Assembly (NCBI GenBank): GCA_038049695.1 | Contig: CP142460.1 | Location: 40,656,501 to 40,720,500, forward strand | DNA from: Cinnamomum chago | Taxonomy: Eukaryota > Streptophyta > Magnoliopsida > Laurales > Lauraceae | DNA length: 64,000 nt | Direction: 5' to 3' | Shown here: positions 1,717-49,203 of the stretch, in pieces | Numbering within the stretch: position 1 is the stretch's first letter | Layout: each line of letters opens with the position of its first letter | Position numbers and translations under genes: made by a program | Notes under the pieces: model-generated | The model's input: only the letters and a program-made list of their open reading frames with translations | Told to the model about the DNA's origin: nothing | The model's database searches: none

Positions 1717-1975
1717 CACTGCAGAATAGAACCTGGGTTCTGTTCCGCAGTGTACGTGGTCGACCCCACGGGGGCTCGGTCGACCGGCGACACAGGGTCA
1801 GGCTCCCTAGGAGCCTGACCAAAACACTATTGACCATTTCAGATACAACTCCCGGTCGACCGGCCATGGGCTCGGTCGACCGGGCACACAGGGACCAGGT
1901 TGACCTGACTTTCTCAGGTCGACCGGGGCTGCTGTGTCCGGGGTTGACCGGGCCTTGACCAGGTCGACCGGGCCA
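1717..1975. repeat. GGTCGACC hairpin cassette in Tekay LTR
   Basis: GC-rich island in an AT-rich LTR. It contains six exact GGTCGACC octamers. A near-perfect hairpin spans 1717-1752 (17-bp arms, 2 mismatches, 2-nt loop). A perfect 11-bp hairpin with a 3-nt loop spans 1796-1820 (arms GGTCAGGCTCC and GGAGCCTGACC). The island is open in several frames on both strands only because the palindromes read as repeats of Arg-Ser-Thr-Gly or Val-Asp-Arg-Pro; I do not regard it as protein-coding. Confidence 0.75.
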
Positions 1976-4066
1976 ACTGAGAGATCCTTGCTGGAAGGGA
2001 TTTTACCCTGTTTTTGGATGGGCTTAGGTGGGACTTTGGCTACCCTTTTTGGACCCATTAGACTATATGTGAGGATGTCTTGAGCCGACGTTCTTCACTG
2101 TTAGTTCGGTTGCATCGAAATCCAATCTGATTCAATCTTGAATGGTATGGGACAACGCGATATCCTCCTTATATCTACACGTGAAGTCTATTTCCTTGGG
2201 TATCGCGAATTCTATCCCTTTCGGTGACTGAGTATGTTGTTCGATGCTTCAGGATTAACATCATACTTAGGATGGACTGTTTATAGTTTTGATTTTTAAT
2301 CGTACCGTCTAGTACAATCTATAAGCTCACTTTAAAGTTTTGAAAATCGTAAAGTGCATAAGGAGCCCGGAATGTCTTCAAACTCAAGGAGTACCAAGTC
2401 ATTATTATAATCGACATACGAGACCCCTATTCACCTTAAATAAATCTTGAAACCAATATTTTACCCGAAACTGTAATAGTTCATTGTATCCCCTCATTTC
2501 CAAGATTTACATTACACGACTTGTTTTCCCGAAAGCATTGAAGTTACACTAGTAACAGTTACTTGTCCCGAAATGTGTTGCACCACATGAAATGGAAATT
2601 ATTCATTGAACATACTTGCCCCGCATGTTCATTTACTTGCACTTGATTTACTTGTTCATGTCTCGATTTGTTAATTGACCTATGAGTCGACATCACTAAA
2701 CTTGGATAAACTTGTCGGTTTGATCCACCGACTTGGAGATCCCCCCTCCCGTCCCGCCAGCTGCAGTTTGGATCCAGATGCCTGGTTTATTACCGTGGTC
2801 CCGTCCCGATACCCGGTTCGCTACCGTGGTCCCGCCCCGTATATTTATATTGTATATATATTTTTTCATTGAATCTCCTCACCTTATGTGACTGAGACCA
2901 ACGTCCCGTTATACTCTTGTCACTTTGGTGATAGAGGATTTAGCTTTGTGTGATTGCCATCTTGCTAGTTCCCGATTCCTTAGATACCCTACATGTTTTA
3001 TATTGCTTATTTATTTTCTGGTAAATGATTCATTTCTTTTATGAAAGCTATTATTTAAACAGGTGTTAAGATTTCCAAGGTAGATTCAGTTATTGTTATA
3101 TTGTTTCCCGTTCATTGTACACACACATGTTTTAAAATGAATGCCCGATTTGTTAAATATCCGTGCTTTTACATATGTTTCAAATGGACATTTGTTTTGC
3201 CATATTTCTATGGTTACACATGCTTTAAATGAATACTCGGTTTGTCGAATATTCATGATTTTACATATGTTTCAAATGAACGTTTGTTTTGCCAGACCTC
3301 TATATTTACACATGTTTTAAATGAACACTCGATTGTCAAATATCTATGCTTTTATAGATGATGTAAATGAACATATGTTTTGTTAGATCTCCATGTTTAA
3401 CTCATGCTTTAAACGAATACATGTTTTGTCAGAGATCCACGATTTCCCACCCGTTTAATTATATGCAGCATTTGATCAAATAGCATGATTTATCATATGT
3501 TTTATTCTTCAGTATATTTATTATCTTTTCATCCACCTGCCAGACCGTCGTTTCTGACCCACTACTTTTGGTACTCAGGTCCAGACTTCTTCGTCCCGAG
3601 ATGAGTGCTTTTGTTGGCTGTGGAGCCATGTTTTGCAGGTTGTTTTGTCGGCTATGTCATGTAGACATTGAGCTTGACATCGGAGTTGCATCGCATATGG
3701 GTAGTGGTTATTAACTTGTTATTGTATGGCTTTTATTAGCCTTTTCTTGGGACTCTTAATTAATGTACATTGATAATTGTAACCTGAACATATATGGGAA
3801 TGTAATATCCTGTTACTGTCAGCTCTGTATTTCGTTGTGATGGTTTACTCCAGTCAGATATGGTTCTCAATATAATAGCTATATGCTAGAGGTTGAGTGC
3901 ATCGCGGAATCCGATGGCCACGGACTCCGGGTCGCAATGCCACTAAAGCTTCCACAAAATATTCAGAATGTGTTGTCTTCATACACGCGGATCTTGGGAG
4001 AAAAATATAATTATCCTTAATCACATTCGCGCCCCCGAGGTCCTGATTTGGGGGCGTAACAATTCA

Positions 4067-4739: not shown

Positions 4740-4742
4740 TTA

Positions 4743-5267
4743 GGGCATGTTTGTGTAACACTTTTCCGTGGAAAAGTTTACGGTTTTCCGCGGAAAACCC
4801 ATTTTTCCGGCGTTTGGTGCGGAACAATTCCGCGGAAATGTTTTCCTGCCTCGTCAGCATTTTCCTTGATAATTGTGGAAATGGGTTTCCTATGGGAGGG
4901 TATGGGAAATGGTTTTCCGCGGAAAACTTCTCCATCTTTTCCTCACTTTTGTCCATTTCAACCCAAAAACCCTATAACTCTTTCATTTTTTTATATAAAT
5001 TATTATTTAATGTTAAATAAATAATATACATGTTATGTTATTTTTTTCAAAAAATTATATCACCAAATAAGAAATTTTGATTTTCTATAAGGAATCCACA
5101 GCCGCACCAAACAACATCTGCACCAATTCAATGAGGAAACTCTTTTTGCACCAAACATGGATTTCTAAATTCTACGGAAATTATTTTCCGAGGTTTTCAT
5201 TTCTATGGAAAATGCTGACGTGGCAATTTCCTCTTTCCGCGGAAAGGGTGTGTACACAAACGTGCCC
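4743..5267. mobile_element. MITE, PIF/Harbinger (Tourist)-like
   Basis: 525-bp element flanked by the trinucleotide TTA on both sides (4740-4742 and 5268-5270). Its termini are imperfect inverted repeats: GGGCATGTTTGTGTAACAC at the left, and the reverse complement GGGCACGTTTGTGTACACA at the right. A 3-bp TTA/TAA duplication and GGGC termini fit the Tourist class. Inside, the palindrome TTCCGCGGAA recurs near 4785, 4830, 4916 and 5235, so the whole element can fold on itself. It encodes no protein and would depend on a transposase elsewhere. An hAT-type MITE is less likely because no 8-bp duplication is seen. Confidence 0.7.
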
Positions 5268-5270
5268 TTA

Positions 5271-6590: not shown

Positions 6591-6620
6591 TTAAACGTTT
6601 TGAATATAAGTCCATAAAAA

Positions 6621-7560: not shown

Positions 7561-7603
7561 ATAACCTACTTCAAGGAAAAATACTCATTTTTTCATAAGA
7601 AAA

Positions 7604-11578: not shown

Positions 11579-12763
11579 TGTAAGACCCCGACCCGAGTGA
11601 ACCCGATTAGTACTAATTAAGTTGCGTGTTAGTGCTAAGCTTGATTAGTGATTTTGGCTAAGTTGAGTTTGGATTAGCTTTTGATATAGTTTTGGGGAGT
11701 TTTGGTTGTCTTGTGATTAGTGGGACCCTTTGGGGTTTTCCTTTTTATGGCATGGCATGTGCTCGAGGTTTTATCGGAGATTTTTACATTCGTGGTTTTA
11801 ATCCCGTTTTATTGGTATTGTTACTCCATTCAACTTTCATGTTGATCCCGTGTCCATTTGAGATCCCGAAACCCGATTTCATAGCCTTGAGGGCAAAACA
11901 GTCATTGCACACAAAATCTGTACCCAAAACTTGATATCCCCGAAACCCGCAAAACATATACTTTTTGGAAACTAGATATTTCGACGATCACTTTTCTCTT
12001 CTTCGTCGAATTCATTAGAAGCCCTGGAAGCCATGATTTCAACCCAATTAGATTGTTAGTGGTGGAGCCCACTCCCCACTTGTTTATAAGGAGACCCTTC
12101 CCCTTCCATTGCCTTTTTCCAGCACAAGAGAGAAAACCTAGGGTTTTGTGAGCAACTCTTTCTTCTTCTTGCTTCTTCATCCTCAATCCACCCCCAAGCT
12201 TGCACTAATAGGAGAGTTGAGGTCATCTTCTTCTTCACCTCCTTGAGAGCTTCCTCTTGATAGTTTTGTGGAGAAAACCATTCATCACAAGACTTTCTTT
12301 GAGCTTGCCATTGCCATTAGAACACCTTACAAGTAAGTATTCCCCTTCATCTTTTAGATTTGTGTTCCTCTAACCCTAGGGAAGCTTCACCTTCATTATT
12401 GTAAGGTTTCCTTGTTATTTCATTGTTTGACCATTTTAGGGTTTGTTTGTTTGGGGTTTTGCTCATAGTTTGGATTCCTTGCTTGGAAGAGTAGTAGAGC
12501 TTGATTGCATTGTTAGAAGACCCAAGGCAAGTGGATGAATGATTTTTCCTAAGCTTTCATTGACTTTGGATATCTTTCCATTAATGCACATTTATTGCTT
12601 TGTTTTGAAATGAATGCTCATGATAGAGGATTAATGGCACATTTATGGTCATGAAGTTGTGTTGGTTTATAGCCTTAAATTTCTTCTTCTTTTGTTTCGA
12701 ATATATATATTGTGAAATGGTTTCCTTCTCTTCTTCTCTTTGCTTGTATGGAATGTAATAGGG
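11579..12763 (+). mobile_element. Tekay LTR, 5' part
   Basis: Starts TGTAAGACCCCGACCCGAG, the same terminus as the LTR start at 61731 on the minus strand. It is clearly homologous to both 61731-60900 (minus) and 200-1170 (plus): the CAACTTTCATGTTGATCCC block near 11830, the TCGTCGAATTCATTAGAAG block near 12003, a TATA-like box near 12084, and the CCAAGGCAAGTGGATGAATG block near 12522. It is partial; the copia-type element takes over at 12764. Confidence 0.7.
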
Positions 12764-14261
12764 GTCTATAATACACTTGATGGAGATTCAATTTAGCTCA
12801 TTACATTTGCCTCTAAAATAGGCGGATATGAAAATGAAAATCTAACTCACACAAACACTCAATGAATGCAAAGATGTATGCTCATGATGTGTGTGTGTGA
12901 TGTCCTCAATCATTTTGAAAATGAAAGCTCATAAATGTATGCCTAAGGCTTTTGAAAGTTTTAGCTCATAAAACATTTATGATTGAGGAAAGGATGCAAG
13001 TCACATATTAAAAATAACTTGTAAAAGATATACATTTGTATCCAAAATAAGTTGTGAAATTCTAAACACAAAACATGTGATGCATAGGGATGACAATCAA
13101 ATCAACAATGTAGCTCATAAAACATAAAAATAGATTTGATTGAAAATAGGGGACAAATCATATGTAATTAAAAATACAACTTGAAAATGATATACCTATC
13201 AAAGCAAAACAAGTTGTGAAACTTTAAAACAAAACTACATATGATTTGTGAAGTTGTTGAATCCAAAACATAAGATAGTTTTGAAAGAGATTTTCTTATG
13301 ATGAAAATCAACAACCAAAGATTCAACCAAGTATAGGAATCATGTTACATATAATTTCAAAGATTCTTTCATTAACATGATCTACTTAGATTTACCAATT
13401 AAAGTACTACTTGGATTGAATCAATGGTGATACATCCAAAACAATAAATCAATTCAAAACATAAACATGTTAAGGACACAACAAAACATAGTTTATCATG
13501 CTTGAAAACATTTACTAATAATAAAGCAAAGCATGACAACATATGGTTAAGGAAAGTAAAACTTACTTAGAGATTTAACTTCATTAATCCAAGCTTTAAC
13601 TTTCCTAATGATCCCCTTCATCCCTTAGTTCATTCCCCTTTCATTGGCCTCAAAACCTCTCAAGGAGGGCCTTAAAAATGCTAACTTTTGACAAAGGAAT
13701 GAACTAGTATTTATAGCCAAAATGTGCCCAACGGCTCTTCCCTGGTCGACCTGGCCTTCACAACGGTAAAAAAACAGACCGTTTGTAAAAGGGCTAACGT
13801 CTCTTTACCCGGTCGACCTGCATGGGCTCGGTCGACCGGCCGACCCGGTCGACCGAGCCCATGCAGGTCGACCTGGCCTGGGACCAAAAATCCCTAAAAA
13901 TGCATATTTTGCATATTTCAAAGTATATTTATGAGGGAACTCTTGGGCCACTAAATCAAGCTTGGAAAACATGTTTTAAATCAAACTAAGATGTTTAAAA
14001 ACATGAAACACAAAAAGCCTAAAATGATTTAAAAGATATAAAACATAGGCTTGCTTGATTTCTAAAACTCCTTTTTCAAAAACAAATGCATCCAAGATTA
14101 AAAACAAAACATGCATAAATCAAAACTTTTACAAATCTTGAAAACAATGCATGTATAAATCAAGATTTCAAGTTTTTCTAAATCAATGCATATGTGTGTA
14201 AATCAAATGATGCTAGAATGATAATGCATCCATCAAATTGCAATACACAAAATTCCTAACA
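12764..14261 (-). repeat. 3' LTR (partial) of the non-autonomous copia-type element
   Basis: Nearly identical to 17750-19257. It carries its own copy of the GGTCGACC cassette (13740-13880) and a TATA-like TATAAATA on the minus strand near 13715. Confidence 0.8.
13811..13873. repeat. 29-bp inverted repeat built on GGTCGACC
   Basis: Perfect 29-bp arms (13811-13839 and 13845-13873) around a 5-nt spacer. Each arm begins or ends with GGTCGACC and contains CATGGGCTCGG. A further GGTCGACC lies at about 13742. The copy in the other LTR (18799-18869) keeps the arms but has a different, longer spacer. Confidence 0.85.
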
Positions 14262-17200
14262 ATCTCCCCCTTTGCAATTTGATGGTAACTCACTCACCAC
14301 TGAATATACACACTAAGTCTTCAGCTCCCCCTTAGCTGGACAAGTCTTGAAATCTCTTGGATGCTACTTCTCTTAGCTTGGGCTCTTGGTCTCTTTCTTC
14401 ATTCTTCTTGATGCTTGGAGCTTGATCATTCTTCAAGCTTTCTTTTCTTCTTTCCTTCTTTAGCCAAGCATCTTCTTTAGCTCCCAAGCTTTCTTCTTTC
14501 ACCTCTCCCCCTTTGACCATGCCTCTCTCTCCCTTTGGCAAGATATGCATTCTCCCCCCCCCCCTGTAGAAGATCATACAATATCTCCCCTTAGGAAGCT
14601 TGGACATTCTCTTCCCTTTTAGAGAACTTGAATACTCTCTCCCCCTTTGACATTAAATTGCAAAGGTACCTACACACATGAAATAAGGAAAATACCTTTT
14701 TGTAGCACCTGTTAGCAAAAGAAATCGAAAATGAAATTCATAACAGGATATCATGTATGGAAGAAGTCTCTAAGGGTTCAAAGGCAATCCAAGGGTCAAT
14801 TTGATCAAAACTAATACTTCCTATGAAGGTTTACACTCCCCCTCAATCCATTCTCTCCTTTTGTCAAACTTTTGACAAAGATATAACTATTTGGTTCAAG
14901 AAGAAGATGGTTTAACCAATTGAGGGTCAACTTCAAGGAAAGAATTAGACACATAACTATAGAGCACAATATGATCAAATTACCAAAATAAAGCAAGGTC
15001 AAGGAGAAAAGCGATCATGGATACCAATTGAAAAAACAAAGAATACCAATTGAGATTCAAGGATAATTCTATTAAAACAATCACTCTAAAATGGACTTAT
15101 AAAGAAATAACTATTAAGATAAATCCAAAATAGAGCTATCCATGATATTATGGGGTTTACTAAACATAGCATCAAATAATTTAACTAAGAAAAACATATG
15201 CTATGAAAGTTTTGAAATCATTTCATTCAATCCAAAAATATGACTATTAATGCGCAAGATGAGTGAAATGAAATTCAAACATGAAGCCAACCTCAACTAA
15301 TAACCAACCAATATTATGAACACATAAACATGGTGGTCATGAGATATACCTATATGAGCAAGAGAGGTGGCAAACATGAAAATTATGATGCTAATGAAAT
15401 GTGACATGGAACAAAAATATATGACTATGAAGTCCAATCCAATGTCAATGGTCTATCACAATCCAAAGAAATGACATCAAATCAATCGAGAATTATACCA
15501 ATTGAAACCAATTGAATTTGACGACATGATAAATAGCAAGGATGTGACAAACACAAAATTCCATCAAGCATCATAAATGGATATTCATCACTTTTAAAGA
15601 TATAACTAATGAGCATAGTGATGAACAAGGTAAATTGCAATGCACAAGGATATTACTTTGTAATGCATGCAATTTCCAAAGTGTCAAAATCATATGAATT
15701 CAACATCTAAGATATCTATCAAACATATAGAAATATGAGGAATGGATTTCAAAGAGTTTCATATGATCAAGATCACTACTATGATGTTGAAACATGTACA
15801 AGGATGACATCACTTAGAGAATATACATGAATCAACATCATAACCATCCAAAAAGAAATGACTAGAAGGTATAGAGGATGGATTTGAGTTCTAGTATGGT
15901 TTCTACAAATATAACTAAGATCACAACCATACATAGAACGATTTGACATTTGCATAGAGAGGATCAATCAACACTCAAGATCTAACTCATCATATCATCA
16001 ATAAAGAATATAGCTAAGCAAGCACAAGAAGGTATGGAGTTAGAGGGTCATCATGGATCGCATAAAGATGAAGATGGATCACATATATGGATATACCTAT
16101 TAAGAACAATGGATTAATTCCAATTCATCTAAAATGATCCATTAACCTATCATGCAATATCTCCACTCTTAGCAAATGTACTAAGCTTACAATGCAATGG
16201 AAAAAGGATATGAGGTTTATACCAAATGAACTTAGCACATTAAATCACATATGTACTTAAAAAGCTCAAATACAAGATTTTACTATAAAGCACATAAACA
16301 ATCATCAATTTGCATTAATGAAAATATATATACCAAGTTAGGCACAAACATGCAAATCAATGACACCATATCCAACCAAGCAATGTAAGACATCAAAATC
16401 AATTTGCATAAAAAGAATGTAACTAAATGAGCAAAGATGCAAATTGTTTGTAAAAATTATTTCCTTCCAAATGATATAATCATAATTAAGCACAAGGAAA
16501 TAAATTCAAGGAAAATGCTTCTATAAATACAACCAATAAAGCTTAGAACATTTTCCAAAGTTTTTTCAAATCACTTCAATATTTACAATTCCAACAAAGA
16601 ATCATTTATAGAATTATGAGCAAGTGATTTTGAAAAACAAGAAGTGTACTATTGTAAATTTTCAATATGTATTTAAAAAAAAAAGACAATAGACACTCAC
16701 ATATTTTCCATACCAAGAGATATAACTTGAAAAATCAATGGAAGACTTAAATTGCTTGAAATCATTTGATTTACAAAAAAGATCTAACTATGACATTCAT
16801 CAAATGATTTTCCAACATCAATTGATCATGAAAGATCTAGCTATGAAAGCTTTTGTAATAACAATCAATTGATCATGAATAGATATGCACTACAAGAGAT
16901 ATAACTATATGAACAAAATGCAAATCCATCATGAAAATATTGCAATCAAAGGATTTTGAAAACCATGAGATATAACTTAAAAGTTCATGAAGACAAAATC
17001 AAATGATCACAAAGAAACATTGCATTTTAAAAGATGTGACTATAAAGAAACAAAATGCAAATGTAACATGACCAACAATTAGATATAACTAAAAAGAATA
17101 GGTTGGTCTAGAGAGTATCAAGGCCTTAAGGCTAGTCTAATAGTCTTCCTTTGAAGATTTACCTAAGGTCTTGATAAGGATGTCCTTGAGAGTTCACTTG

Positions 17201-17400
17201 AGGACTCACCAACTCTTGGGGATATAACTTGAAAAAGTCTTAGAGTGGTTCAATGATACTTTGGGGAAATTTCATTTTCAATCATAGTGAAAATCATCAC
17301 AAAGATATGCAATAAATCACAACACTAGGGTTCTAATCTAGCAAGGATCAACTCCGGGTTGTTAAGCCCTAAAATGGAGTAACCTCTCTCTGATACCAAT
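14262..17400 (-). other. Internal region of the non-autonomous copia-type element
   Basis: A/T-rich and devoid of credible reading frames. Two structures stand out. Near the 3' LTR (14262-14650), five purine-rich tracts of the AAAGGGGGAGA type are seen on the minus strand. From about 14880 to 17230, the motif AGTTATATC or a close variant recurs over 20 times on the minus strand at irregular spacing of about 50-150 nt (for example 14880, 15599, 16730, 16903, 16970, 17085 and 17222). It appears to be a degenerate array rather than a decayed polyprotein. Confidence 0.6.
17388..17400 (-). other. Primer-binding site (initiator Met tRNA type)
   Basis: Minus strand ATTGGTATCAGAG directly after the LTR end. 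This matches the TGGTATCAGAGC primer site typical of plant copia elements and fixes the element's orientation. Confidence 0.75.
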
Positions 17401-32667: not shown

Positions 32668-32807
32668 GCATCAACACTCACTACCGAACAACATAAAACG
32701 TGATTTTCTCATCCCCTATTTCTTTCTATTCTCATCTAAATATTTCTTCACGAATGGAGGGTTACACGTTCGAAATGTCCGGCCTTTAACCCCTCTCACC
32801 CCCACTA

Positions 32808-35504
32808 ATGCTCCACACCACTAGCGGGTCATTCCAAGTCCCACAAAATATAGAATCCTCTAAGGTATTAGATGGATCCTTAGCCGCTTCAAGTCATGAC
32901 CCACAACAGATAAGACGGTCCCTCTTCGAAGGAGGCTCAATCCCGGTTAATACCGTTACAATGGGAAGGAATCATTCTAACACATCTACCCCATCTCATT
33001 CATCAGGGAAGAACCAATTCTCTTCGCATTCAGGAGTAACCTACACGGACCTAGTTAGTCACACTAGCCAGGTTATAAGATATAGGGTTCACGATAATAT
33101 CTCATCAAGGGATCACTCTCTCCACGCAAGTGATCCTGTGGTTTCGCAGGTTATACCCTACTCTTCCCTAATTAGTCAGATGGAGCCAATCACTTCTTCT
33201 ATCCCACAGTATGGGATGCCCGCTGATGCACCTATCACTACACCAGTTAGGGTCATTGCACCATCACAAACTCTCGCAATAAACGAGAATCTGTATCATC
33301 AAGCGAGTCATGGTTTAGTAAACCTTGGACAATTGATGACGACCAACACCTCGCACCGAAACCCTTTAATTCATATAGGAACGTCAGAAGTCTATCAACA
33401 GTGTGAAGTGGCTCGACCTCATTTCCAGATGATGACCCCTCCACCAATCAATCAAACTAATTACAACCCTGTAAACGGCCAGTAATGATGTATTATATCC
33501 CCAACCAATTCAATATGAGAGGACCCCTCCTATTTACCAAAATTAGGCTGCCCCAATCTACCAAGTGCCTAACTCAGATTAGGGTCCCCCGACATAGAAC
33601 ATACAGGTTATCAATCCCTTAGGCGTTAGACATTCTTATCAAACATACCAGGGAGATGAGCCACGCTATCCGCAAGCATATCGACCGCCCACCTCGAGCC
33701 CGATGGTTGACCAGTATAGAGGACAATCGGTTGCTTATGGAGGAAATCAATTGAACCAAAACTATCATCCTATTCAGCAACCATAACCCCAGGACCAGTT
33801 CCAGAAGCCAATTTACGCTCCTGTTCCACTAGAATCACAAGGAGCATACCAACCACAGACAATTCAATACCTAGATCCTTTAGCATTTAAAGAATTGTAG
33901 AAAAATGTAGAGGAGCTCAAAAATGAAATTAAGAAGAAGTCCTCAAGCTCAACTGGAAAAAAGCTAGGTTTCTATAATTTTACCAAAGAGGAAGAAAAGG
34001 AGAAGTCACCTTTCCCTGTTAGGGCTCCTAAATTCATACCTTACGATGGGACAACTGACCCTCAACACCATCTAGTCTCATTCTGCAACAAATGTCGTGC
34101 CATCGCTGACAATGACTCCATGCTTATAAACTATTTTCAAGAATCATTAATCGGGAATGCATTGACTTGGTATACGTCTGTACCTTCCCCCGAAATTAAT
34201 ACCTTCGAAGATGTAGTGGAAAAATTTCTAACACGATACCAGCACCTGACTAAAAACAAACCTCTCTGGCATGACTTAGCAAACCTCAAACAAAAGAACA
34301 ACGAGGATTATGAGGAATTCGCGGTGAGATGGCAAAATCAATTTGTACGATTGGACTACAATATGCAAGAAGAAGAACAAGTGAGAATGGCTATATCAAA
34401 TATGAAAGATCCAATGAGAGCTTTAATGACAATCGGGGAGGTTGTTAGTTGGAGTGGTCTATACCGTAGATTGTCCAGGATAAACAAAACTTGGACAAAG
34501 GAGTGTTAAACCCCATCATCGACCGTAAAAAGAACACGCGTAGAGCAGGCACAACTACCTAACTAGAAAGTCGCGTGACCCCTGAGGTGAGCTCGAATCA
34601 AGAAGAAGTTTACCGACCATACCAAGAACATAACAACGTTCGCTTTAACGAACACCAAAATCAGGGGCAAAATAACAATTCCAACTTCCAGGGCGGTAAC
34701 CCGAATTATCAAAGGAACAACCAGAATTATCAACTGAACAACCAGAACTTTCGGAATCCTTCGAGAAACAATCAAGGTTATGACCAACCACCAAGGAACC
34801 AAGGACCCCCGGTAAATCAAAGCCAGAACTCTGATCACATACAACCAGTTCCGAATTCAACAGTTCCGCCATAGAATCATAACACAAATCCTCAACCCAA
34901 CTACCGAACCGTTCCCTTCAATTACAATAGAGACAACAATGGCAACCAAAATAACATGAACAATGGGAATAGAAGAAGATTCATACCCAAAAGGGGAAAC
35001 TACCCATCCTTACCCCAACCTTGGACTGCTGTCTTTTGGTCCCTTTTAAGCTAAAACGCTCTTCAACTCCCCCCGGAACGACCACAGGCATGGTCAGAAC
35101 ACCTAGATAAAACCAAATTCTGTGCCTACCAAAGGATGCCAGGGCATGACCTCACCCAATGTTACATGGTTAGAGACCTAATTTACGATCTCAATGACAA
35201 AGGTAGGATCGATTGGAGCAATATTAATTCGATAAACACGACCGACCCGCGGAATACCCCTCCTAATCGAAACACGACTACCAATCCAGCACAAAATGTC
35301 CCGAACATGCAGATTTATACAAACCCCCTACCTCAACATGGGCCGTCAACCTCTGGACAAACCTCACAAACTCAATTGATAAACATAGCCATGATAGAGC
35401 ACCAATGTGTTCATGCCCCAGCCCAAGGAAGCATAAACCATAGCCAACCATGCCACGATGAGTTCTTTGAGGAAGAAGACTATCGAAGATACATAGTGCC
35501 ATGA
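32808..35504 (+). CDS. gag: Tat element gag region (fossil)
   Basis: Plus-strand frames at 32808-33485, 34120-34509 and 35136-35504 carry gag. The first is a Ser/Pro/Gln-rich N-terminal stretch of 225 codons without a known domain. The retrotransposon-gag core reads NYFQESLIGNALTWYTSVP and VRWQNQFVRLDYNMQ (about 34120-34400). An Asn/Gln-rich segment follows (34575-34870), then a Tat-style zinc-binding block FCAYQRMPGHDLTQCY (about 35118-35165). Gag would form the virus-like particle and bind the RNA. The region is broken into several frames, consistent with an inactive old copy. Confidence 0.7.
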
Positions 35505-35540
35505 GATGGGAAAACCAAATTCAAAATCTTCAATTCCAGA

Positions 35541-36470
35541 ATGGGCGAGATAGTTGATTCTCCTAACCTTTACAAAGTGAATTTCAATGAGCCAAATGAC
35601 CAAAAACCACCGATCCTTATGAATTCCCAATTGGATCCTCCCCCGGGTGCAAACGCTTCTCAAGCCCACCTCCGATCTGGACGGATCCGTCCTCCCCGGT
35701 TACCTCCTCACCAGGTTACCCAAGATCTAGCCTCACAGAACCCAAACGGTCAGGTTGAGGAGATAATTGATGACAGAGCTTATACTTCGATAGAAATTGG
35801 AATCGAGTATGATCTCTTAGGGCACCTTACAAAGATCCCAGCTAAGGTATCTATCCTCGACTTGATTAAAACCTCACCAAAGCATCAACAACAATTACTT
35901 GAGGCTATTACGCGTTTGCAAGTCCCCGTGGGCATAACTCCCGAAGAGTTGAGAACTACCATTGTGGCTTTAGCCCCAGGAGCTCCTTTCCCTGCCGTCA
36001 CATTTACTGAGGAAGAGCTGAAAGAAATACCATCTGGGGCGAGGACGTCTCCCCTACATTTAATGGTCAAGATAGCAGGAAAGGAAATATCAGGAGCACT
36101 AATAGAAACCGGCGCATCATTGAACATATGCCCATTGAAAAGATACAAAGCTTTAGGGCTCACGACAAAAGACCTGACTCCAGCACCCATGGTGGTGACC
36201 GGTTACGATGGAAATAAGAAAACAGTATGTGGAAAAATCATGTTATTAGTGGAAATAGGTCCGATCTCGATGCCAAAAGAATTTTATATCATGGATATCC
36301 CCGCCACTTTCAACTTAATCCTAGGACGCCGATGGTTGAATCATATGAATGTCGTCATGTCAAGTTGGCATCAATGTGTTAAATTCCCCTATTTAGGCAA
36401 GATCGGGAAAACAATGAGGGATCCACCTGTGATTGAACCAGAAGAACTTCAAATACTCCCGACCTTGTAG
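35541..36470 (+). CDS. Tat element protease segment (fossil)
   Basis: A 309-codon frame. The aspartic-protease-like part lies at roughly residues 170-290, with LHLMVKIAGKEISGALIE leading into the active-site region, then VVTGYDGNKKTVCGKI and FNLILGRRWLNHM, the usual closing block of plant gypsy proteases. The N-terminal part is a hydrophilic linker typical of Tat polyproteins. The enzyme would cut the polyprotein during particle maturation. Assigned by motif order between gag and RT. Confidence 0.65.
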   Translation: MGEIVDSPNLYKVNFNEPNDQKPPILMNSQLDPPPGANASQAHLRSGRIRPPRLPPHQVTQDLASQNPNGQVEEIIDDRAYTSIEIGIEYDLLGHLTKIPAKVSILDLIKTSPKHQQQLLEAITRLQVPVGITPEELRTTIVALAPGAPFPAVTFTEEELKEIPSGARTSPLHLMVKIAGKEISGALIETGASLNICPLKRYKALGLTTKDLTPAPMVVTGYDGNKKTVCGKIMLLVEIGPISMPKEFYIMDIPATFNLILGRRWLNHMNVVMSSWHQCVKFPYLGKIGKTMRDPPVIEPEELQILPTL

Positions 36471-36629
36471 CCTGCTCCTATGATGCCAGAGGTCAAGATT
36501 CACGGATACAGAGTTGACCCTTTCATCTCCTTAATGGATATGGACCCCATGCAAAATATATTTCCTGAATTATCCCCTTTGCAAAGTCCAACAACGGACA
36601 ACGAGAGTCAAGCTTGAGGATGGACTCTG

Positions 36630-36980
36630 ATGAGGAAGATGGGATATCAACCCAGATTTGGACTTGGAAAGGATGGAGAAGGTATTATTGACCCTTACAT
36701 ACCAGACCTTAGAGTGAGAGCAGAAGGATTAGGGTACGATACACACAATGATATGAGAAATAAACTAGAGGATTGGACTTTAGATGAACACTTCGTGAGA
36801 CACGATAAAATTCTAAATCCCGACACATCACTGACTAGAGAGGAACACTACAATTTGGATCCAAATGATAAAGGTAAGGCCGTTTTAGTAGAAGATTGGG
36901 AAGACTCCACTCATCCAAAAGTGAGATCTACGAGGAAATCTTTGGCACTTGGAGATAACTCCATTCACCAAAGGAAGTGA
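36630..36980 (+). CDS. G-patch segment of the Tat polyprotein (fossil)
   Basis: Reads MRKMGYQPRFGLGKDGEGI near the start, the Gly-rich G-patch signature (Gly at regular spacing, aromatic residue after MGY). G-patch motifs bind nucleic acid and are known between protease and RT in Tat-clade and some retroviral polyproteins. The following 80 codons are an acidic linker without a known fold. Confidence 0.6.
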   Translation: MRKMGYQPRFGLGKDGEGIIDPYIPDLRVRAEGLGYDTHNDMRNKLEDWTLDEHFVRHDKILNPDTSLTREEHYNLDPNDKGKAVLVEDWEDSTHPKVRSTRKSLALGDNSIHQRK

Positions 36981-37407
36981 ACAATGCAGAACACACTATT
37001 GACCCGAGGTCCCAATTCCCATCATGCAACATGTTGATTGTGAGTTAACCAACTCATTTATCCAAAAAAAAGGCCAATTGCCGAGCTCCAAGAAAGCCGT
37101 GAGACATGGGAAATTCAAGACCCTACTCAAGAAGAAGTGGTGTACTGGCCCATTGCCTGGCGCCATTGGCGAGAAGACCCCTCTCAAAGAGACCATGAAA
37201 TTTGGGAAGCCGATGACCAAAATGATCACGAAGTGGTATACCAACCAACTGCCTGGCCATGCCAGCTGGGAGGATCCTCCTCGGTAGATAGCCCATCTTT
37301 AACCCCACCTGTACCATATCATCCCAAAACTCCAAAAAAAAATTAAAAATAGAAAACCCAAAAAATTAGGAACCGTAGGAGTAGAAAACTTTATTCATCA
37401 TCAAAAT

Positions 37408-38396
37408 ATGGGTGATCTGAGGCGATGGAAGTTACCCCCGGTAGAACAGTCCAAACTAGAGGAGATTATGATCAACATTGATAAGTTAGGCTGTGAATCT
37501 CTGCCTGTCATTCCAGAACCCGAGCCTTCGGCACAACATGCAAACATCAATGGTGGAATGGGTGTTTATGAATTAGTGGATGTCGAAGAAGGAGATGACG
37601 AAGTTTATGAGGAATCTAGGGGAATAGTCAAGAAGTTTGATGAAGAGACACAAGCAGCTGCCGAAAAGACAAAGGAGATAAACCTAGGGACAGAGGAAAG
37701 ACCCAAACAGGTCCAAATCAGCGCGTGCCTAGAACCCGATGAGGAGAGTAAGATACTTGAAGTCCTAAGAGAATGTTAGGACGTGTTCGCATCGGATTAT
37801 AAGGATATGCCCAGACTTGCACACAATCTGGTGGAGCACCGGATCCCACTAGAAGAAAATGTTAAGCCTGTCAAGCAAAAATTAAGAAAGATGCTCCCCG
37901 ATGTTGCCCTTAAAGTAAAAGAAGAGGTTGACAAACTCCACCAAGCTAAATTCATTGAGTCGTATTATTCCCTCAATGGATAGCCAACATAGTCCCAGTA
38001 AAGAAGAAAGATGGACGCGTCCGAGTTTGTATTGATTTCAGAAATCTGAATAAGGCATCTCCCAAAGATGATTTCCCTTTGCCTCACATCGACGTGCTTA
38101 TTGATAATACTGCGGGGCACGCTATGCTATCATTCTTGGATGGTTACTCAGGGTACAATCAAATCAAGCTGTCAACAGAGGATCAAGAGAAAACATCATT
38201 CACAACACCCTGGGGGACCTATTGCTACCTTATGATGCCTTTCGGGTTAAAGAATGTCGGTGCCACTTATCAGAGCGCCATGATGGCGATATTCCATGAC
38301 ATGATACACGATTATATGGAAGTTTACGTAGATGACATTCTAATCAAATCCAAAACCCGTGAAGATCATGTCACGGCTCTCAGAAAGGTCCTTTAA
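37408..38396 (+). CDS. Tat element reverse transcriptase (fossil)
   Basis: Frames at 37408-37779, 37783-37983 and 38079-38396 cover the acidic linker and RT fingers/palm. Recognisable blocks: YKDMPRLAHNLVEHRIPL, RVCVIDF-like region near 38018-38060, FLDGYSGYNQIKLSTEDQEK, FGLKNVGATYQSAM, and the catalytic YVDDILIKSK. This is the Ty3/gypsy RT order. Broken across more than one frame. Confidence 0.8.
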
Positions 38397-38420
38397 CGAT
38401 CTAGAGACACCCAACTGAAA

Positions 38421-39944
38421 ATGAATCCGAAGAAATGCGTTTTTGGAGTATCCTCCGACAAACTCTTGGGTTTTATGGTAAGTAATCGGGGGATCGAGGT
38501 TGATCCGTCTAAGGTAAAGGCCATCCTTGAAATGCCGCCCCCGAAGAATCTCAAAGAATTGAGAGGCCTCATAGGGCGATTACAGTTCATCAGGAGATTC
38601 ATATTACAACATTCCCACAGATGCGAACCATTCCACAAATTGCTAAAAGGAGGTGTAAAATACCACTGGGATGACGACTGCCAAAAGGCATTTGAAGATC
38701 TGAAGAAATATCTGTTGAGTCCTCCCGCCCTGCAACTCCCAATAAAAAACAAGTGTCTCATCCTATACGTGTCAGCGACAGAATCTGCGATAGGTGTGGT
38801 CCTGGGTCAACATGATGAGACCGGCCGAAAGGAGAACGCTATTTATTACCTGAGCAAATCGCTATTACCCTATGAATGGAAATACTCTCCAATGGAAAGA
38901 ACCTGCTTAGCCCTGGTTTGGGCGGCCCAGAAATTGAGACACTACTTTCTAGCCCATCAAGTTAAACTCCTAGCGAGGATGGATCCCTTAAAGTATATTT
39001 CCGAGAAACCTATCACTTCAGGAAGAGTTTCCCGATGGCAAATGCTCTTGGCCGAATTTGACATAACCTATATTACACAAAAGTTCATAAAAGGACAAGC
39101 GATCACTAACCATCTAGCACACCTCCCTCTGCCTCAATACGAGCCATTCAAAACCGGTTTCCCCGATGAGGACATTTTATTTACAAACATTGAGGAAGTT
39201 AAGAATGATGATTTATGGACAATGTATTTCGATGGGGCTTTGAACCAAAATGGAAAAGGAGTCGGGATAGTATTGTTATCCTCGGAAGGAGTTGCCATAC
39301 TGAAAGCCTACAAGATTGGGTTTCCAACAACCAATAACATGATGGAATACGATGCTTTACTAGCAGGACTGAGAGAAGCCCAGACTCTAGGTATCGAGAA
39401 ACTGAGAGTCTTCGGTGATTCCAAGGCTGTTATTTCCCAAATAGCCAGAGAATGGAAGGTCAATGCCCCCAAACTTGCACATTACCATGGAAAAGCAAAA
39501 GAATTAATGTCTGATTTCAAAAATATTTCCTTCCGCTACATTCCTCGAGCCTTGAATCGATTGGCCGACTCGTTAGCAATCCTAGCTTCGATCATAGAGA
39601 TACCTGACAACAAAGATTCTGAAGGCTTCATAATTAAAAGGCTAGCTTCTCCGTCCGTCAAACCGATAGATTTATCCAAAGGGAACCCTGCCGAAGTTCT
39701 GCCAAAAATTCTGAAGGAAAAGAGTAAGAAAGCCAAGGCCAAAGAGTCTGATCACAAGGAGAACACCAAGCCCGAAGGAGTCCTAGCCGGCATACAACAT
39801 GATGATGACCTGGTAGATGATCACCCATGGTACTTCGATATCTGGAATTACTTACACGATGGCTACATCCCTGGATATGCCACCCGATCGGATAAAAGAG
39901 CGTTGAAAGAATTGGTTCAGAGATATGTCATAGTCGCGGGGTAA
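38421..39944 (+). CDS. RT thumb, RNase H and archaeal-type RNase H of the Tat element (fossil)
   Basis: A 507-codon open segment. First the RT thumb/connection (LRGLIGRLQFIRRFILQHS), then the gypsy RNase H (LYVSATESAIGVVLGQHD, YSPMERTCLALVWA, near 38760-39060). Next comes a second RNase H domain with YFDGALNQNGKGVGIVL, NNMMEYDALLAGLREA and VFGDSKAVISQ (about 39215-39600). The second RNase H is of the archaeal/plant type and is the diagnostic acquisition of the Tat clade. This is one of the best-preserved stretches of the element. Confidence 0.85.
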   Translation: MNPKKCVFGVSSDKLLGFMVSNRGIEVDPSKVKAILEMPPPKNLKELRGLIGRLQFIRRFILQHSHRCEPFHKLLKGGVKYHWDDDCQKAFEDLKKYLLSPPALQLPIKNKCLILYVSATESAIGVVLGQHDETGRKENAIYYLSKSLLPYEWKYSPMERTCLALVWAAQKLRHYFLAHQVKLLARMDPLKYISEKPITSGRVSRWQMLLAEFDITYITQKFIKGQAITNHLAHLPLPQYEPFKTGFPDEDILFTNIEEVKNDDLWTMYFDGALNQNGKGVGIVLLSSEGVAILKAYKIGFPTTNNMMEYDALLAGLREAQTLGIEKLRVFGDSKAVISQIAREWKVNAPKLAHYHGKAKELMSDFKNISFRYIPRALNRLADSLAILASIIEIPDNKDSEGFIIKRLASPSVKPIDLSKGNPAEVLPKILKEKSKKAKAKESDHKENTKPEGVLAGIQHDDDLVDDHPWYFDIWNYLHDGYIPGYATRSDKRALKELVQRYVIVAG

Positions 39945-41090
39945 TTGTATTGCAGATCATTCAGTGGAATTCTCCTACGATGTGTGACCACAAAAGAAGG
40001 GCAAGAGATAATTAAAGAAGCACATTCAGGAGAGTGTGGAGGACATGTTAATGGCCAGATGTTGGCTAAGAAGATCATCCGTTTAGGTTATTACTGGCCA
40101 TCCCTAGAGTCGGATTTAGTCCATTATGTTAGGAGATGTAAAGAATGTCAGTTGCATGTCGACCTAATACATACCCCCGCATCATCCCTTCACCCTACCA
40201 TAGCTCCATGGCCTTGCTCGACATGGGCCTTTGATATCATAGGACCCTTGGCCCCTATACTAGAAAACACACAAAATAAGGCATTCATATTGACTGCCAC
40301 AGAATATTACACTAAATGGCCAGAAGTAGAGGCATATGTTAATATTAAGGCTACCTCTATAGTTAAATTCATTAAAAAGAATATAATAGCCAGGTTTGGC
40401 ATCCCTAAGGTATTCATAACAGATAATGGCCCCCAATTTATATCTCAACAAATGAATGAGTTGTGCACAAAATATGATATAGAACTGGATCATTCAACCC
40501 CATACTATCCCCAAGCCAATGGTCAAGCCGAAGCAACCAACAAGACCTTGTTGAAGATCATCAAGAAGACTGTGCAAACAACCAAAGGTAATGATTGGCC
40601 AGACCGTTTGGTTGAAGCGTTGTGGGCATACCGGACTTCTATAAGAACTCCTACAGGAGAAACCCCATACTCTTTGACCTACGGGACGGAAGCAGTCCTT
40701 CCCCTCGAGGACCTTCACCCGTCACTGCGCGTCCAGTTAAATGAAGATATAACAGAAGACCAGAGGAGAGAATCACTACTACTTCAGCTAGACCTACTTG
40801 ATGAGAAAAGAATGAAGGCAGCAGAACATGCACAAGTATATCGGAAGCGGATCGCCAGAGCCTATGACAAACATGTCAGAGAACGAAGATTCAAAGTTGG
40901 TGATTTTGTGCTAAAGCGCATCACTCCATCCCAGCTTCCGCATCCAAGAGGTAAGTTACGACCCAATTGGGAAGGCCCATATGTAATTAAAGAAGTATAT
41001 TCTGAAAATGCATACAGACTAGTAAATGCAGAAGGGGAAGAGCTCCCCGATCCATGGAATGCTATGTACCTGAAAAGGTACATAGTTTGA
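39945..41090 (+). CDS. Tat element integrase (fossil)
   Basis: A 381-codon open segment. The N-terminal zinc-binding HHCC block is recognisable (HSGECGGHVNGQ ... CKECQ). The catalytic core has WAFDIIGPL, FITDNGPQF and YYPQANGQAEATNKTLLK, giving the D, D and E of the DDE triad. The C-terminal part has a GPY/F-like module (GKLRPNWEGPYVIKEV). There is no chromodomain, as expected for Tat. It would insert the element's cDNA into chromosomes. Confidence 0.85.
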   Translation: MYCRSFSGILLRCVTTKEGQEIIKEAHSGECGGHVNGQMLAKKIIRLGYYWPSLESDLVHYVRRCKECQLHVDLIHTPASSLHPTIAPWPCSTWAFDIIGPLAPILENTQNKAFILTATEYYTKWPEVEAYVNIKATSIVKFIKKNIIARFGIPKVFITDNGPQFISQQMNELCTKYDIELDHSTPYYPQANGQAEATNKTLLKIIKKTVQTTKGNDWPDRLVEALWAYRTSIRTPTGETPYSLTYGTEAVLPLEDLHPSLRVQLNEDITEDQRRESLLLQLDLLDEKRMKAAEHAQVYRKRIARAYDKHVRERRFKVGDFVLKRITPSQLPHPRGKLRPNWEGPYVIKEVYSENAYRLVNAEGEELPDPWNAMYLKRYIV

Positions 41091-45695: not shown

Positions 45696-45700
45696 CTCAC

Positions 45701-47466
45701 TGTTAGTTTTATGGTCTCAATACCAAGGGTATATGATGTAATAAATTGATTAATTTCTTTATTTATCAATACAATCATGTTTTCCTTTCATGAGATGAAT
45801 GGTGTTTAATCATATACTTGCACATAACCAATACGAATGACATAATGGTTCATGAGATGAACCGGAGTCCACAAGTATACTGATGTAATACATGTGTATG
45901 GATGAGATCCACATACATGAGATATGTATTGCAAATCTTATACTTAAATATCTTCACAACCAGTGATAACATTGGACATCTCATCTGACAAGGTTGCAGC
46001 ACTTTGATCACTATGAGATAGTGTGATTTGTCTCGATCATCGGAATGTAAGATTCTGGATCATGGTGCTGGTACATTGGATGTATTGAAGGACCATGAGA
46101 AGCACCTTATACACATTGTCTTTACTTTAAGCTCTGCTCTCATAATTCCCTACCAATAGGCTCATAATCCAGAGACATTAATGAACTCAAGTTTCTATCT
46201 ATGCATTTGCTTTGAGTCACCAATGAGTGAGGCCAATTGTAGGTCAACACCTCGGTGATTTGGGTACGTGGTAGTAGAGCTGTGGGAACATTCAATAGTC
46301 AAGATGGAATCTATCTTTAATATCCCCTTGTGTCAATTAATGGATTTATCATTGGTAAGTGCGCACCCATTCCAATTAAGAGTTAATTGGATCGGTACCA
46401 AATGATCATTATAATTAATTGGGGCTCAAGGATAATAAGATATGGATCTATTTTGGTAGACAGGTCCAATTGATCCATGGATATAGATGGAGGGGCCTAC
46501 TTGTGGTATTGAGAGAGTTTAGGGTCTTCATTGTAATATATTCCTAAGACTGGAGTGCAGTTGCGTTTATATAGTGGAGTTATTTGCAATTAACTGTGGG
46601 CCCGGATTGTACATGAGATGTGAGGTCGCGTGTCCAAGTTGGAGCCAGCTTTCTGAGGAATCCCTAGTGGTCCCCACGCTAGCCCAAGTTATTAGAAAGA
46701 TACTAATTCTACTTGAACTCTAATATGAAGGTTACTATTTCTATTTGAAGTGAGACTTCTAATAGTGGTAATGGTAAGTTACTAATTATTAATGGAAGTA
46801 GGACTTCTATTTTAATTAGAAAGGAGAAAGCTACTAATAGTTGTGGAAGTAAGACTTCTATGGCAACTAGCAAGGGAGAAGGTTACTATTTTGTAATGGG
46901 AGTTAAACTTCTATTTCAAATAGGAAAAGAGGTGGAATGGAGGACTACAAATAGGGGAGATATCCCCTCTTGGACGTCCATAATAGAGAGAGCATCACCA
47001 GCCCCTTTGTGCAAGAGTTGCACAACTTCTCTTCCTCTTTTAAGTTCTCTTCTCTTTCTCCTCTAGTTCCTTAGAGTTACTAGTTGGTTTTTCTCTTGGA
47101 GATTCCACCATCTTCTTGAGAAAAGAGATCTAATACGGGTCATAGCGTGGAAGATCAAAGGGTGTTGGAGATTCTGATTTGATTAAGTGAAGGTGTTCAT
47201 CATCAAATAAAGAATTCAAATTCTCCATTAAAGCACTACTGAGCTCCAAAGGTATAATCTACATCCTTGTGTTTTTGTAGATTTCGTGGTTGCATATTTA
47301 GGTGTTGTTTTCTATCTTCTAGATAGGTTATGTTGCTGTACATGATTTATGAGTTTGAGGGATTGCATCCTTGATTGGGTTTATTGCCTTCTAGATAGTT
47401 GATTCCGGCATTTGGTGGATCAAAAGTTTTTAAAACCTATCTGAATGGCCCACCTATTTTCCAAGA
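45701..47466 (+). repeat. 5' LTR of the full-length copia element
   Basis: Begins TGTTAGTTTTATGGTCTC and is followed by the primer site. A TATA-like stretch (CTACAAATAGGGG near 46945) precedes a GGACGTCC palindrome near 46974, both seen at the same place in the other copies. Confidence 0.9.
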
Positions 47467-49203
47467 ATTGGTATCAGAGACATACCTCATCTCTAATCAT
47501 GTTAGATCAGTAAGCTTGTTTTAATCTTTGCATGAGATGTGAAGAGGATAGAGCAAGGGCTATGTAAGGATCAGTTTTTGATGAATTTGCTTAGTTTAAT
47601 AGTAAATTCATGTTTGGATAGTCACAAAAGGGTTTAATAATGATGGAAGGATGGTAGAAAGCCATTGGAACACTTTAGAAGTAATTTGGTGAAGAATGGA
47701 CAAGAAACAGAAAACCCCAAGTTGCAGGTTTTCGTCAGTCCGGTCGACCTAGCCCCGTGCTCGGTCGACCGGGTGACTTGCAGGTCGGTTGACCGAGCCC
47801 TCTGGCCGGTCAACCGAGGACACTGCACAGCAGGTTGCAGAAACTGGATTTTTCAGTTTCGGGTCTTCTCTTACATCCTATTTTTCCAGTATTATTTGGC
47901 AGCCTATTTTTATGATTTCTATGGTTGTATGAGATACTAACTTGCAGATGATCTTGTCCTCTCCATATGGCCCATAAGTCTTTTACTTTCTTTTTATGGT
48001 TATTGGTTTATTTGAGGCCAAGTGTAAAGGGCATCATGGTTTTCTTTGTTTCCCGTGAAAGGGCAAGGCATGATGAATTTCCCTATAGCCCTTTTATTTC
48101 CATGTTTAGATTACCATGTAAGTCTCATAATCGAGGCATAGGAATTTATGTAATTTTTCTAAATTTGTAAATTCTGGCGATGTCTGAGACGAAGAAGGAA
48201 AGCGATGTTGGACTCTTAATCAAAGAGCTTGAAGATTTACCAAAAGAGTTTTGGAGTTGCCCAAAGAGTTTGAGGAATTCCAAAGTTTTGGAAAGTCTAG
48301 AAGTCCAAGAAGTCTACTCCGCTAGGGCCATGTGGAGGAGAGGACTAGTTTCTAATTTTAGCACTTTCTATTTATGGATGCATGCTTAATTTAGAATATT
48401 TCCAAATCTGATCCAAACATAGCAAGTTACTAAAATTGGTCAAATCAAATTAATTTTTGGAAAGAGTTCTAATTAGTGTTGATGACCCATGAGATGGACA
48501 CATTGGCAACACTAATTTAAGAAACTGGACTTTCCTTAAAATAACTTGACTTGGAACCAATCATTGGCCATATCATGAGATGATTTGATATGTATATATG
48601 TGGGCCCATGTACCTTAAGATAAATCCCCAATTCTAAAATATTAAGTGAGAGCGGGGCATTTATATTTAGAAATCCCCATGGTTTTCCACCATAGGTCCA
48701 TTGTAAGGAAAGTATTAGCTTCGCGCCATCTTGAGAATGGCCGTTCCCCACGGAGGGCTTTTACTTGTCTGGTTACTAGATATGAATCTCCTATGGATAG
48801 TGTTGGTGAGACGGGGCGGGGGCCCACTCCCCAAGGAGGAGCTGCTCGCAACGGTTGTCATGCAATGCTAGTTGGTGGGTCACACTTAACTAAAATAATG
48901 ATGTAGTATCCCCAAGGATTTGCCTCATTTGTTTTAGAAACCGAAGCTAATCGGGAGTAATTCATTATTTGTTATGAGATACCCAGCTAATAATGAATGA
49001 AGGGGATCATGGATAGTTAGTCTTAATCCTAATTTTGACCAACTTTGATCCGCACCAATCTAGGTGGTATTCGCACTCCCCAAGGAGGCATACCCTGGAG
49101 ATTGGGATTCCGATGTATTCTGAATTTAGTGGTTATGAGGATTCCCATGTAAATTTGGTAGAATACTAAGCCCTAATGTCATTTAAATTCATTAATTGAA
49201 TGT
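47467..49203 (+). other. Primer site and leader of the copia element
   Basis: TTGGTATCAGAGA at about 47468-47480 is the Met-tRNA-type primer site. The leader of about 1.7 kb has no recognised gene; a 69-codon frame at 48180-48389 is unassigned. A GC-rich cassette at 47736-47825 contains two exact GGTCGACC octamers and two GGTTGACCGA/GGTCAACCGA variants, the same motif found in the Tekay and copia LTRs to the left. Confidence 0.6.
47736..47825. repeat. GGTCGACC cassette in the copia leader
   Basis: GGTCGACC at about 47741 and 47761, plus GGTTGACCGAG and GGTCAACCGAG. It can fold into one or two GC-rich hairpins and is embedded in AT-rich sequence. Confidence 0.7.

Follow-up and report, generated by a model that had tools for sequence, protein, structure and literature searches.

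Paired GGTCGACC palindromes in Ty1/copia and Ty3/gypsy retrotransposons of Cinnamomum chago: a candidate exchangeable regulatory module

Palindrome clusters at the locus

The stretch of DNA considered here (the window) comprises 64,000 nucleotides of the Cinnamomum chago genome (assembly GCA_038049695.1, contig CP142460.1, positions 40,656,501 to 40,720,500, forward strand) and holds long terminal repeat (LTR) retrotransposons of both the Ty1/copia and the Ty3/gypsy type, in which the palindromic octamer GGTCGACC recurs in clusters of closely spaced sites. A preliminary description of the window had counted about 25 octamers, all of them clustered. There are indeed 25 exact copies, close to where it had placed them, but those at 19277 and 21712 are isolated octamers. 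The clusters, referred to below as repeated-motif (RM) clusters, and the two lone copies are as follows.

1758 to 1969, plus strand: RM cluster in LTR E1, with pairs at 1758/1778, 1854/1874, 1898/1917 and 1942/1962; sites 1898 and 1942 read GGTTGACC
13744 to 13873, minus strand: RM cluster in the 3' LTR of element A
18732 to 18869, minus strand: RM cluster in the 5' LTR of element A
19277 to 19284, plus strand: lone octamer in region D (19258-22399), which resembles Tat-like LTRs
21712 to 21719, plus strand: second lone octamer of region D, accompanied by a decayed site at 21779
23563 to 23755, minus strand: RM cluster in LTR E5, with pairs at 23563/23583, 23627/23650 and 23727/23748
47742 to 47815, plus strand: RM cluster in the leader of copia element B, with pairs at 47742/47763 and 47787/47808 (the second decayed)

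How unusual is this density? Where about one octamer had been expected in a random 64 kb, dinucleotide shuffles of the window (n=100) put the expectation near 0.2 (mean 0.21, maximum 2). The genome-wide count that the preliminary description had called for gave 97,078 copies of GGTCGACC in the 1.06-Gb genome (14 contigs, two of them short, at 0.7 and 0.15 Mb), so that the octamer is enriched well beyond this locus and not at background level elsewhere. The reversed word CCAGCTGG occurs 12,208 times and, since this control lacks CpG, the excess of GGTCGACC is probably understated. Eighteen 10-kb loci, sampled at fixed positions regardless of the motif (180 kb in total, 7.5 kb of it N), contained 17 octamers where dinucleotide composition predicts 0.46, and GGTCGACC ranked first by excess among CpG-containing 8-mers. 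Clustering is likewise general: 92 of the first 100 places on contig C1 fall into groups of two or more (gaps of at most 600 bp; 32 groups, eight singletons). A scan for palindrome clusters of any kind over 26 loci (291 kb), some of which had been picked for GGTCGACC, returned 19 clusters, comprising 13 of GGTCGACC, two of GGTTAACC and one each of GCTCGAGC, TCCGCGGA, CAGATCTG and GGAATTCC; Markov simulations (n=5) gave none.

Pairing of sites about two helical turns apart

The key feature of the clusters is the spacing of their sites. When CpG-decayed forms are admitted through the pattern GGTYRACC, the window contains 33 sites, 28 of which lie within five clusters, and 26 of these 28 are arranged as 13 adjacent pairs at a distance of 19-23 bp; two turns of the DNA helix correspond to about 21 bp. 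The same spacing prevails genome-wide, where exact GGTCGACC pairs with a gap of 11-15 bp (19-23 bp start to start) number 33,022, or 6,604 per bp of gap, against 19 for the reversed control, whereas gaps of 21-50 bp (29-58 bp start to start) yield 7,492 pairs, or 250 per bp, against 29; over gaps of 7-20 bp the totals are 35,855 and 20. Half of the successive distances of up to 150 bp on contig C1 (32 of 64) measure 19-23 bp, and the rest bunch at 76-78, 85-87 and 97-100 bp. Pairs with one CpG lost from one partner, tested genome-wide in a single form, number 1,432, with two for the control.

The single sites tend to be slightly longer palindromes than their core, the dyad extending by a mean of 1.25 bp against 0.79 in shuffles, a value that 9 of 2000 shuffles reach (55 non-redundant of 76 sites). 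The spacers between paired sites are varied, their likeness averaging 0.426 between clusters, 0.441 within clusters and 0.346 after letter shuffling. The unit of the array would thus consist of two dyad-symmetric sites with GGTCGACC as core, placed 19-23 bp apart centre to centre and often repeating at 76-100 bp.

Retrotransposons that carry the arrays

Four groups of elements hold the arrays, two of them copia and two gypsy. The copia hosts are the following.

12756 to 14261, minus strand: 3' LTR of element A, its 3' end cut short
14262 to 17400, minus strand: internal region of element A, with the polypurine tract (PPT) AGGGGGAG exactly 10 bp ahead of the 3' LTR and four more copies within 582 bp
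17401 to 19257, minus strand: 5' LTR of element A
45701 to 54648, plus strand: copia element B, with gag, Pol_BBD and RVT_2 and with LTRs at 45701-47464 and 52942-54648

The two copia-type clusters of the preliminary description belong to the two LTRs of a single element (element A, 12756-19257, minus strand), which are 97.6% identical over 1,516 aligned bp. Its 5' junction reads CA/ATTGG/TATCAGAGA at 17388, differing in the last base from the published CA/ATTGG/TATCAGAGC, and the signature used to recognise Sireviruses, that is, the PPT AGGGGGAG 10 bp before the 3' LTR, several further copies upstream and an AT/TG attachment, is found in full. Each LTR carries five exact octamers and the internal region none, the RM criterion being at least eight copies per element; the octamers begin 389-519 bp into the LTR and are followed by TATA at 547 and 555, a TATA box starting 28 bp past the end of the last octamer. 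The label Sirevirus-type is drawn from the non-coding signatures (PPT, attachment and junction) and is to be taken as provisional, since element A yielded no coding domain (one open frame had no Pfam match, and tblastn gave no match to the copia and gypsy pieces of the window).

In the internal region of copia B AGGGGGAG was not found, and its pairs sit about 260 bp after the primer-binding site (PBS), in the leader. Just past this element, an open frame at 55140-55676 (minus strand) contains a plant mobile domain (PF10536). Elsewhere in the window, 32790-41090 is occupied by gypsy gag-pol pieces that include an additional RNase H domain, and the segment directly ahead of them (31007-32667), 74-86% like the copia B LTR, is probably a solo LTR.

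The first of the two gypsy groups, of chromovirus type, is represented in the window by four features.

184 to 3105, plus strand: LTR-derived sequence E1, its start set from homology and its 3' end not fixed
22400 to 26581, minus strand: LTR-derived sequence E5 of the E1 family, 81% to E1 over 1457 bp, ends not fixed
59573 to 61731, minus strand: 3' LTR of a chromovirus-type element, homologous to E1 and E5
61781 to 64000, minus strand: gypsy pol fragments directly upstream of the preceding LTR, with reverse transcriptase (RT), RNase H, weak integrase and SH3_Tf2-1

E1 and E5 are assigned through their homology to the LTR that adjoins these gypsy pieces, and a locus elsewhere in the genome supports the same assignment. 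A query with the E1 cluster yielded 4,012 genome candidates, 40 of which were scored, and two of them lie 8.0 kb apart on contig C2 in the same orientation. Between these LTR copies the locus L031 encodes gag, RVP_2, RT_RNaseH, Integrase_H2C2 and SH3_Tf2-1 above the Pfam cut-offs, and in tblastn it is 73% identical to the window's gypsy pol in the RT and 90-93% in the integrase pieces. Its match to the Chromo domain scores 17.9 bits, under the cut-off of 25.1, and a 43-amino-acid piece of the window matched no Chromo domain. A second locus fetched in the same way (L032) has neither a gypsy pol match nor the octamer and lends no support. A TATA-like box lies about 510 bp into the LTR, at homologous places in E1 (515) and in 59573-61731, with the array downstream of it (in E1 from 1575); in E5, too, TATA-like words occur ahead of the array.

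A separate observation concerns the arrangement of gypsy elements in the genome: gypsy RT matches recur every 8.0-8.2 kb or so in the same orientation, three to four in a row, from C9:45789984, C10:39372803, C6:47871955 and C1:66231734 onward, which suggests tandem arrays of a chromovirus-type element.

The second gypsy group is best seen at locus L030, which combines a gypsy gag (PF03732) with an LTR/PBS-like junction, a TGGCGCC-type PBS, which we take to hint at the Tat lineage, and the TATA-like box TATATAAA. Twelve octamers lie about 1.0-1.5 kb upstream of this box, and two more TATA-like words are found further upstream. Relatives of this LTR occur at L021, L001 and in one part of L029, and the group is here called Tat-like as a presumptive name. 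Locus L029 had at one point been considered an RVT_2 element with RMs of its own; this was rejected, as its two clusters belong to chromovirus-type and Tat-like LTRs near, not in, the copia element. The same locus contains, at 2945-3442 (minus strand), a fragment of a formin FH2 domain near retrotransposon sequence, either a captured gene piece or a host exon.

Different palindromes in the same LTR slot

One LTR of the window carries another palindrome where its relatives carry GGTCGACC.

60126 to 60389, minus strand: alternative array of nine TTCGCTCGAGCGAA-like copies (at most four mismatches), in the GGTCGACC slot of E1 and E5

Eight of the nine copies have at most three mismatches, and only one such copy occurs elsewhere in the window. 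The LTR at 59573-61731 aligns with E1 at 1341-1466 and at 2331-2719 and not in between, and the same holds with E5; between the flanking matches there are 864 bp in E1 and 643 bp in the related LTR. Palindromes of this CTCGAG type are themselves paired: the arrangement CGCTCGAG-N7..22-CTCGAGCG occurs 12,415 times genome-wide, against three for its control, and all 50 among the matches listed are 19-22 bp apart, although 13-28 bp was allowed. At L038, L039 and L040 CTCGAG sites lie some 130-395 bp after a Sirevirus PPT/LTR junction, and L038 in addition has four copies of GGTCGACC upstream of a Transposase_32 domain (PF20167). Since gypsy and Sirevirus-type loci alike hold CTCGAG sites and GGTCGACC, both palindromes are present in both kinds of sequence.

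A third palindrome, GGTTAACC, which equals GGTCGACC with both CpG cytosines deaminated, forms 1,381 pairs genome-wide (control 25), 43 of the 50 among the matches listed being spaced at 20 or 22 bp.

Several neighbouring observations deserve mention. At C1:1536981-1537205 paired GGTTAACC and paired GGTCGACC occur no more than about 220 bp apart, possibly as a mixed or converting array. Four TCCGCGGA palindromes cluster at 4787-5236 of the window, and the clusters at L020 (6021-6418; CAGATCTG/AGATCT) and L025 (187-445; GGAATTCC/GAATTC), whose sites are in places 24-27 bp apart, are possible further modules. In L038-L040 the Transposase_32 domain occupies the place expected of an env-like gene and is followed by two or three copies of AGGGGGAG and then by the 3' LTR; it may represent the Sirevirus env-like gene or other cargo.

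Sharing between families

Have the arrays travelled between lineages, or did each lineage make its own? The longest words around the octamer that are common to two groups measure 23 bp (Sirevirus-type and Tat-like), 20 bp (Sirevirus-type and chromovirus-type) and 19 bp (chromovirus-type and Tat-like), where scrambled flanks reach at most 16, 18 and 17 bp in 40 trials; the scramble ignores base preferences beside the octamer, making it a lenient null, and the segments were hand-picked, so that exchange is supported but unproven. Words shared with the leader of copia B reach 16, 15 and 15 bp, with scrambled maxima of 15, 14 and 17. In BLAST comparisons among Sirevirus-type, chromovirus-type and Tat-like segments (L015, L028 and L038 being left out), shared sequence was limited to octamer-containing stretches of about 32-83 bp, two exceptions aside. 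A 391-bp match across groups was discarded, for it is a copia B LTR fragment that neighbours a gypsy LTR in the cut segment and not shared LTR sequence. A 40-bp match between the copia B leader and L021 spans decayed sites and contains no exact octamer.

Transfer of a common module between Ty1/copia and Ty3/gypsy, one of the possibilities raised in the preliminary description, thus finds support in the shared cluster type and in the 19-23-bp words. The scenario in which all clusters descend from one simple duplicated segment does not apply to whole LTRs, although the short modules may share an origin.

What the arrays may do

We propose that the clusters are exchangeable arrays of a cis-regulatory module bound by a dimeric protein, a reading drawn from sequence patterns and, in our estimation, evenly poised between right and wrong. 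Each palindrome would be bound by a homodimeric host protein, two dimers would settle on one face of the DNA two turns apart, and the array would serve as an enhancer or anti-silencing platform. Modules could pass between lineages by template switching or recombination and might be retained because the same cell factor serves both. A dimeric protein appears most likely because the dyad core is mildly extended, because spacing is fixed near two turns while the spacers vary, and because the same spacing recurs across different palindromes. Among candidate proteins, WRKY factors were considered and set aside, as their W-box, TTGACC, fits the decayed GGTTGACC but fails the commoner GGTCGACC and GGTTAACC. 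LOB-domain factors, whose sites are CGG-type palindromes, may be a further candidate. More tentatively, it is conceivable that the superfamilies share an exchangeable set of paired docking modules (GGTCGACC, CGCTCGAGCG, perhaps GGTTAACC), in which swaps switch the trans-acting factor, whether encoded by the host or by the element, that activates or de-silences the element, and which unite elements into regulatory guilds across phylogeny.

A number of results weigh against the dimeric-protein proposal. The position of the array varies by group, falling after the TATA-like box in chromovirus-type LTRs and in the leader in copia B. In two of the four groups, then, the array probably lies past the promoter, in a place where an RNA structure could have an effect; it may be transcribed in the chromovirus-type LTRs and must be in the copia B leader, so that an upstream enhancer in the simple sense becomes less likely and a role for RNA structure has to be kept in view. 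Spacers (n=44) resemble their own reverse complement at 0.493, against a mean of 0.414 and a maximum of 0.463 in 200 letter-shuffles, and one of five inward offsets pairs above re-pairing (28 of 48 versus 20.3); moreover, element A and E1 contain pairs of pairs in inverted orientation that fold into long stems. Across ten flank positions dyad symmetry is not significant (198 of 550 cells complementary, null mean 191, reached by 544 of 2000 shuffles). Heterotypic pairs are practically absent genome-wide (none forward and one reverse; controls one and one), which fits a protein and also fits hairpin pairing or the presence of a single motif type in each LTR. The lenient null for shared words has already been mentioned. 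Finally, octamers in E1 and E5 agree at 38 of 40 ungapped positions versus 506 of 575 outside, one of six octamers falling in a gap, and CpGs are retained at 7 of 11 places within octamers versus 14 of 22 outside, too little to show constraint on the octamer. Taken together, the spacer self-complementarity, the TATA-like box ahead of the array in chromovirus-type LTRs and the absence of GGTCGACC from the surroundings of most PF20167 loci lower our confidence in this proposal, in the wider idea of shared docking modules, in an element-encoded factor and slightly in convergence, and raise it somewhat for hairpins.

Some of these points are what would be expected if the palindromes were RNA or cruciform hairpins, kept for their stems in packaging or dimerisation or serving as the seat of small-RNA silencing, an explanation that we consider a serious rival, although a less likely one. 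Besides the self-complementary spacers, the offset pairing and the probable transcription of the array in chromovirus-type LTRs and copia B, five folded segments are strongly structured (z from -5.0 to -10.3), element A contains inverted repeat arms of 32 bp that are 97% and 94% complementary, and small-RNA hotspots on Sirevirus palindromes are reported in the accessible portions of PMC5311732 and PMC10760457. Palindrome arrays, however, fold well against dinucleotide shuffles by construction, and the z-scores were given little weight accordingly; the flank preference of the sites may explain part of the spacer self-complementarity. Spacer ends in 48 distinct pairs match no better than after re-pairing (42 versus 41.2, P 0.46), inverted spacer similarity within clusters (0.432) is no higher than direct similarity (0.441), and a role as silencing target would not favour sharing. 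On the emphasis that the preliminary description placed on hairpins the evidence is therefore divided: the strong predicted folds and the spacer statistic speak for it, the re-pairing of spacer ends does not, and, as many loop sizes would fold, a spacing fixed at 19-23 bp fits a DNA-bound protein better.

Could each lineage instead have evolved the octamer independently, as the site of an abundant and conserved plant factor, with no transfer at all? Such convergence is favoured by the near-identity of Sirevirus motifs across distantly related monocots and eudicots (Vitis, CGGTCGACCG; Osr10 and Osr8, CGGTCTGACCG and CGGTCAGACCG) and by the words of only 15-16 bp shared with the copia B leader, which in one of three comparisons do not exceed the scrambled maximum. 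Yet the three main groups share longer words than their scrambled maxima, and spacers from different clusters are almost as similar as spacers from the same cluster, making convergence in pure form unlikely. It is also conceivable, though quite unlikely, that an element-encoded protein recognises the array as an anti-silencing platform and that other families acquire the motif, as in the VANC system of VANDAL elements, which are DNA transposons. In the available text of PMC5735166, VANC6 motifs also occur in AT9TSD1, which is unrelated to VANDAL. Two motif types can replace each other in C. chago, and GCTCGAGC lies within about 3.5 kb of a PF20167 gene in seven of eight fetched loci, the best 8 of 150 by score, versus 16 of 221 overlapping windows cut from the 18 loci at fixed positions (the 16 coming from three loci). 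On the other hand, GGTCGACC occurs at just one of these eight loci versus 22 of 221 windows, one PF20167 protein (L027) gave no solved-structure match at E up to 1, and the linkage needs no functional tie, since Bousios et al. 2010 place RMs upstream of the env-like gene. Least probable of all, and in our view very unlikely, is a functionless sequence that duplicates or inserts itself in LTRs. The 76-100-bp periodicity does show local duplication, but the slot of the related LTR holds a different palindrome array (643 bp against 864) in place of an empty site, and the paired spacing recurs in three palindromes.

Comparison with known systems

Sirevirus palindromes have so far been regarded as peculiar to a single copia genus. 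Contrary to the earlier statement that no standard description exists, repeated motifs in Sirevirus LTRs have been in print since 2010: as far as the accessible text goes, RMs were described in 13 Sireviruses, with CGGTCGACCG for the Vitis element, from a data set of Ty1/copia elements, and were stated to be confined to Sireviruses and lacking in classic retrotransposons (Bousios et al. 2010, PMC2829016). The arrays described here are alike in being palindromic, CG-rich and present in many copies; in element A, though not in the chromovirus-type LTRs, they also lie within the LTR a short way upstream of a TATA box, and element A shares the PPT and the junctions. The CGG-CCG signature recurs as well, with CGGTCGACCG in 11 of the 25 window octamers and a C before or a G after the octamer in 18 of 25. 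They differ in that the motif extends to LTRs of two Ty3/gypsy groups, chromovirus-type and Tat-like, and to the leader of copia B, which lacks the Sirevirus PPT; a pair spacing of 19-23 bp is not mentioned in the available part of PMC2829016.

In maize, judging from the accessible portions of the two papers, Sirevirus palindromes cluster in the cis-region of the LTR, are small-RNA hotspots and vary greatly (PMC5311732, PMC10760457), and the palindrome is also the motif found most often in structured regions of Helitrons (PMC10760457). Their sequence is different (CACCGGAC..GTCCGGTG), and the citing accounts, so far as available, describe no sharing with gypsy elements. No gypsy LTRs with these motifs turned up in the literature searched, from which subscription papers were largely missing. 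The observation itself is real and strong, and its motif is already known in one copia genus; what the search suggests to be new is that the motif crosses into Ty3/gypsy, that its sites pair at two turns and that the palindrome changes within one LTR slot. If paired modules of one kind do move between copia and gypsy elements and can replace one another in place, they would constitute a shared control code of plant LTR retrotransposons and would offer a handle on the activation or silencing of a large part of the genome, with 33,000 paired sites, one spacing and natural swaps.

A working precedent for motif arrays of changing specificity is VANC/VANDAL, where, in the available text (PMC5735166), a short motif also forms dense, tandem, non-coding arrays with rapid turnover, related elements carry different motifs and one unrelated element shares a motif; there, by contrast, the motif is non-palindromic and runs in one orientation, and a transposon-encoded binder has been demonstrated.

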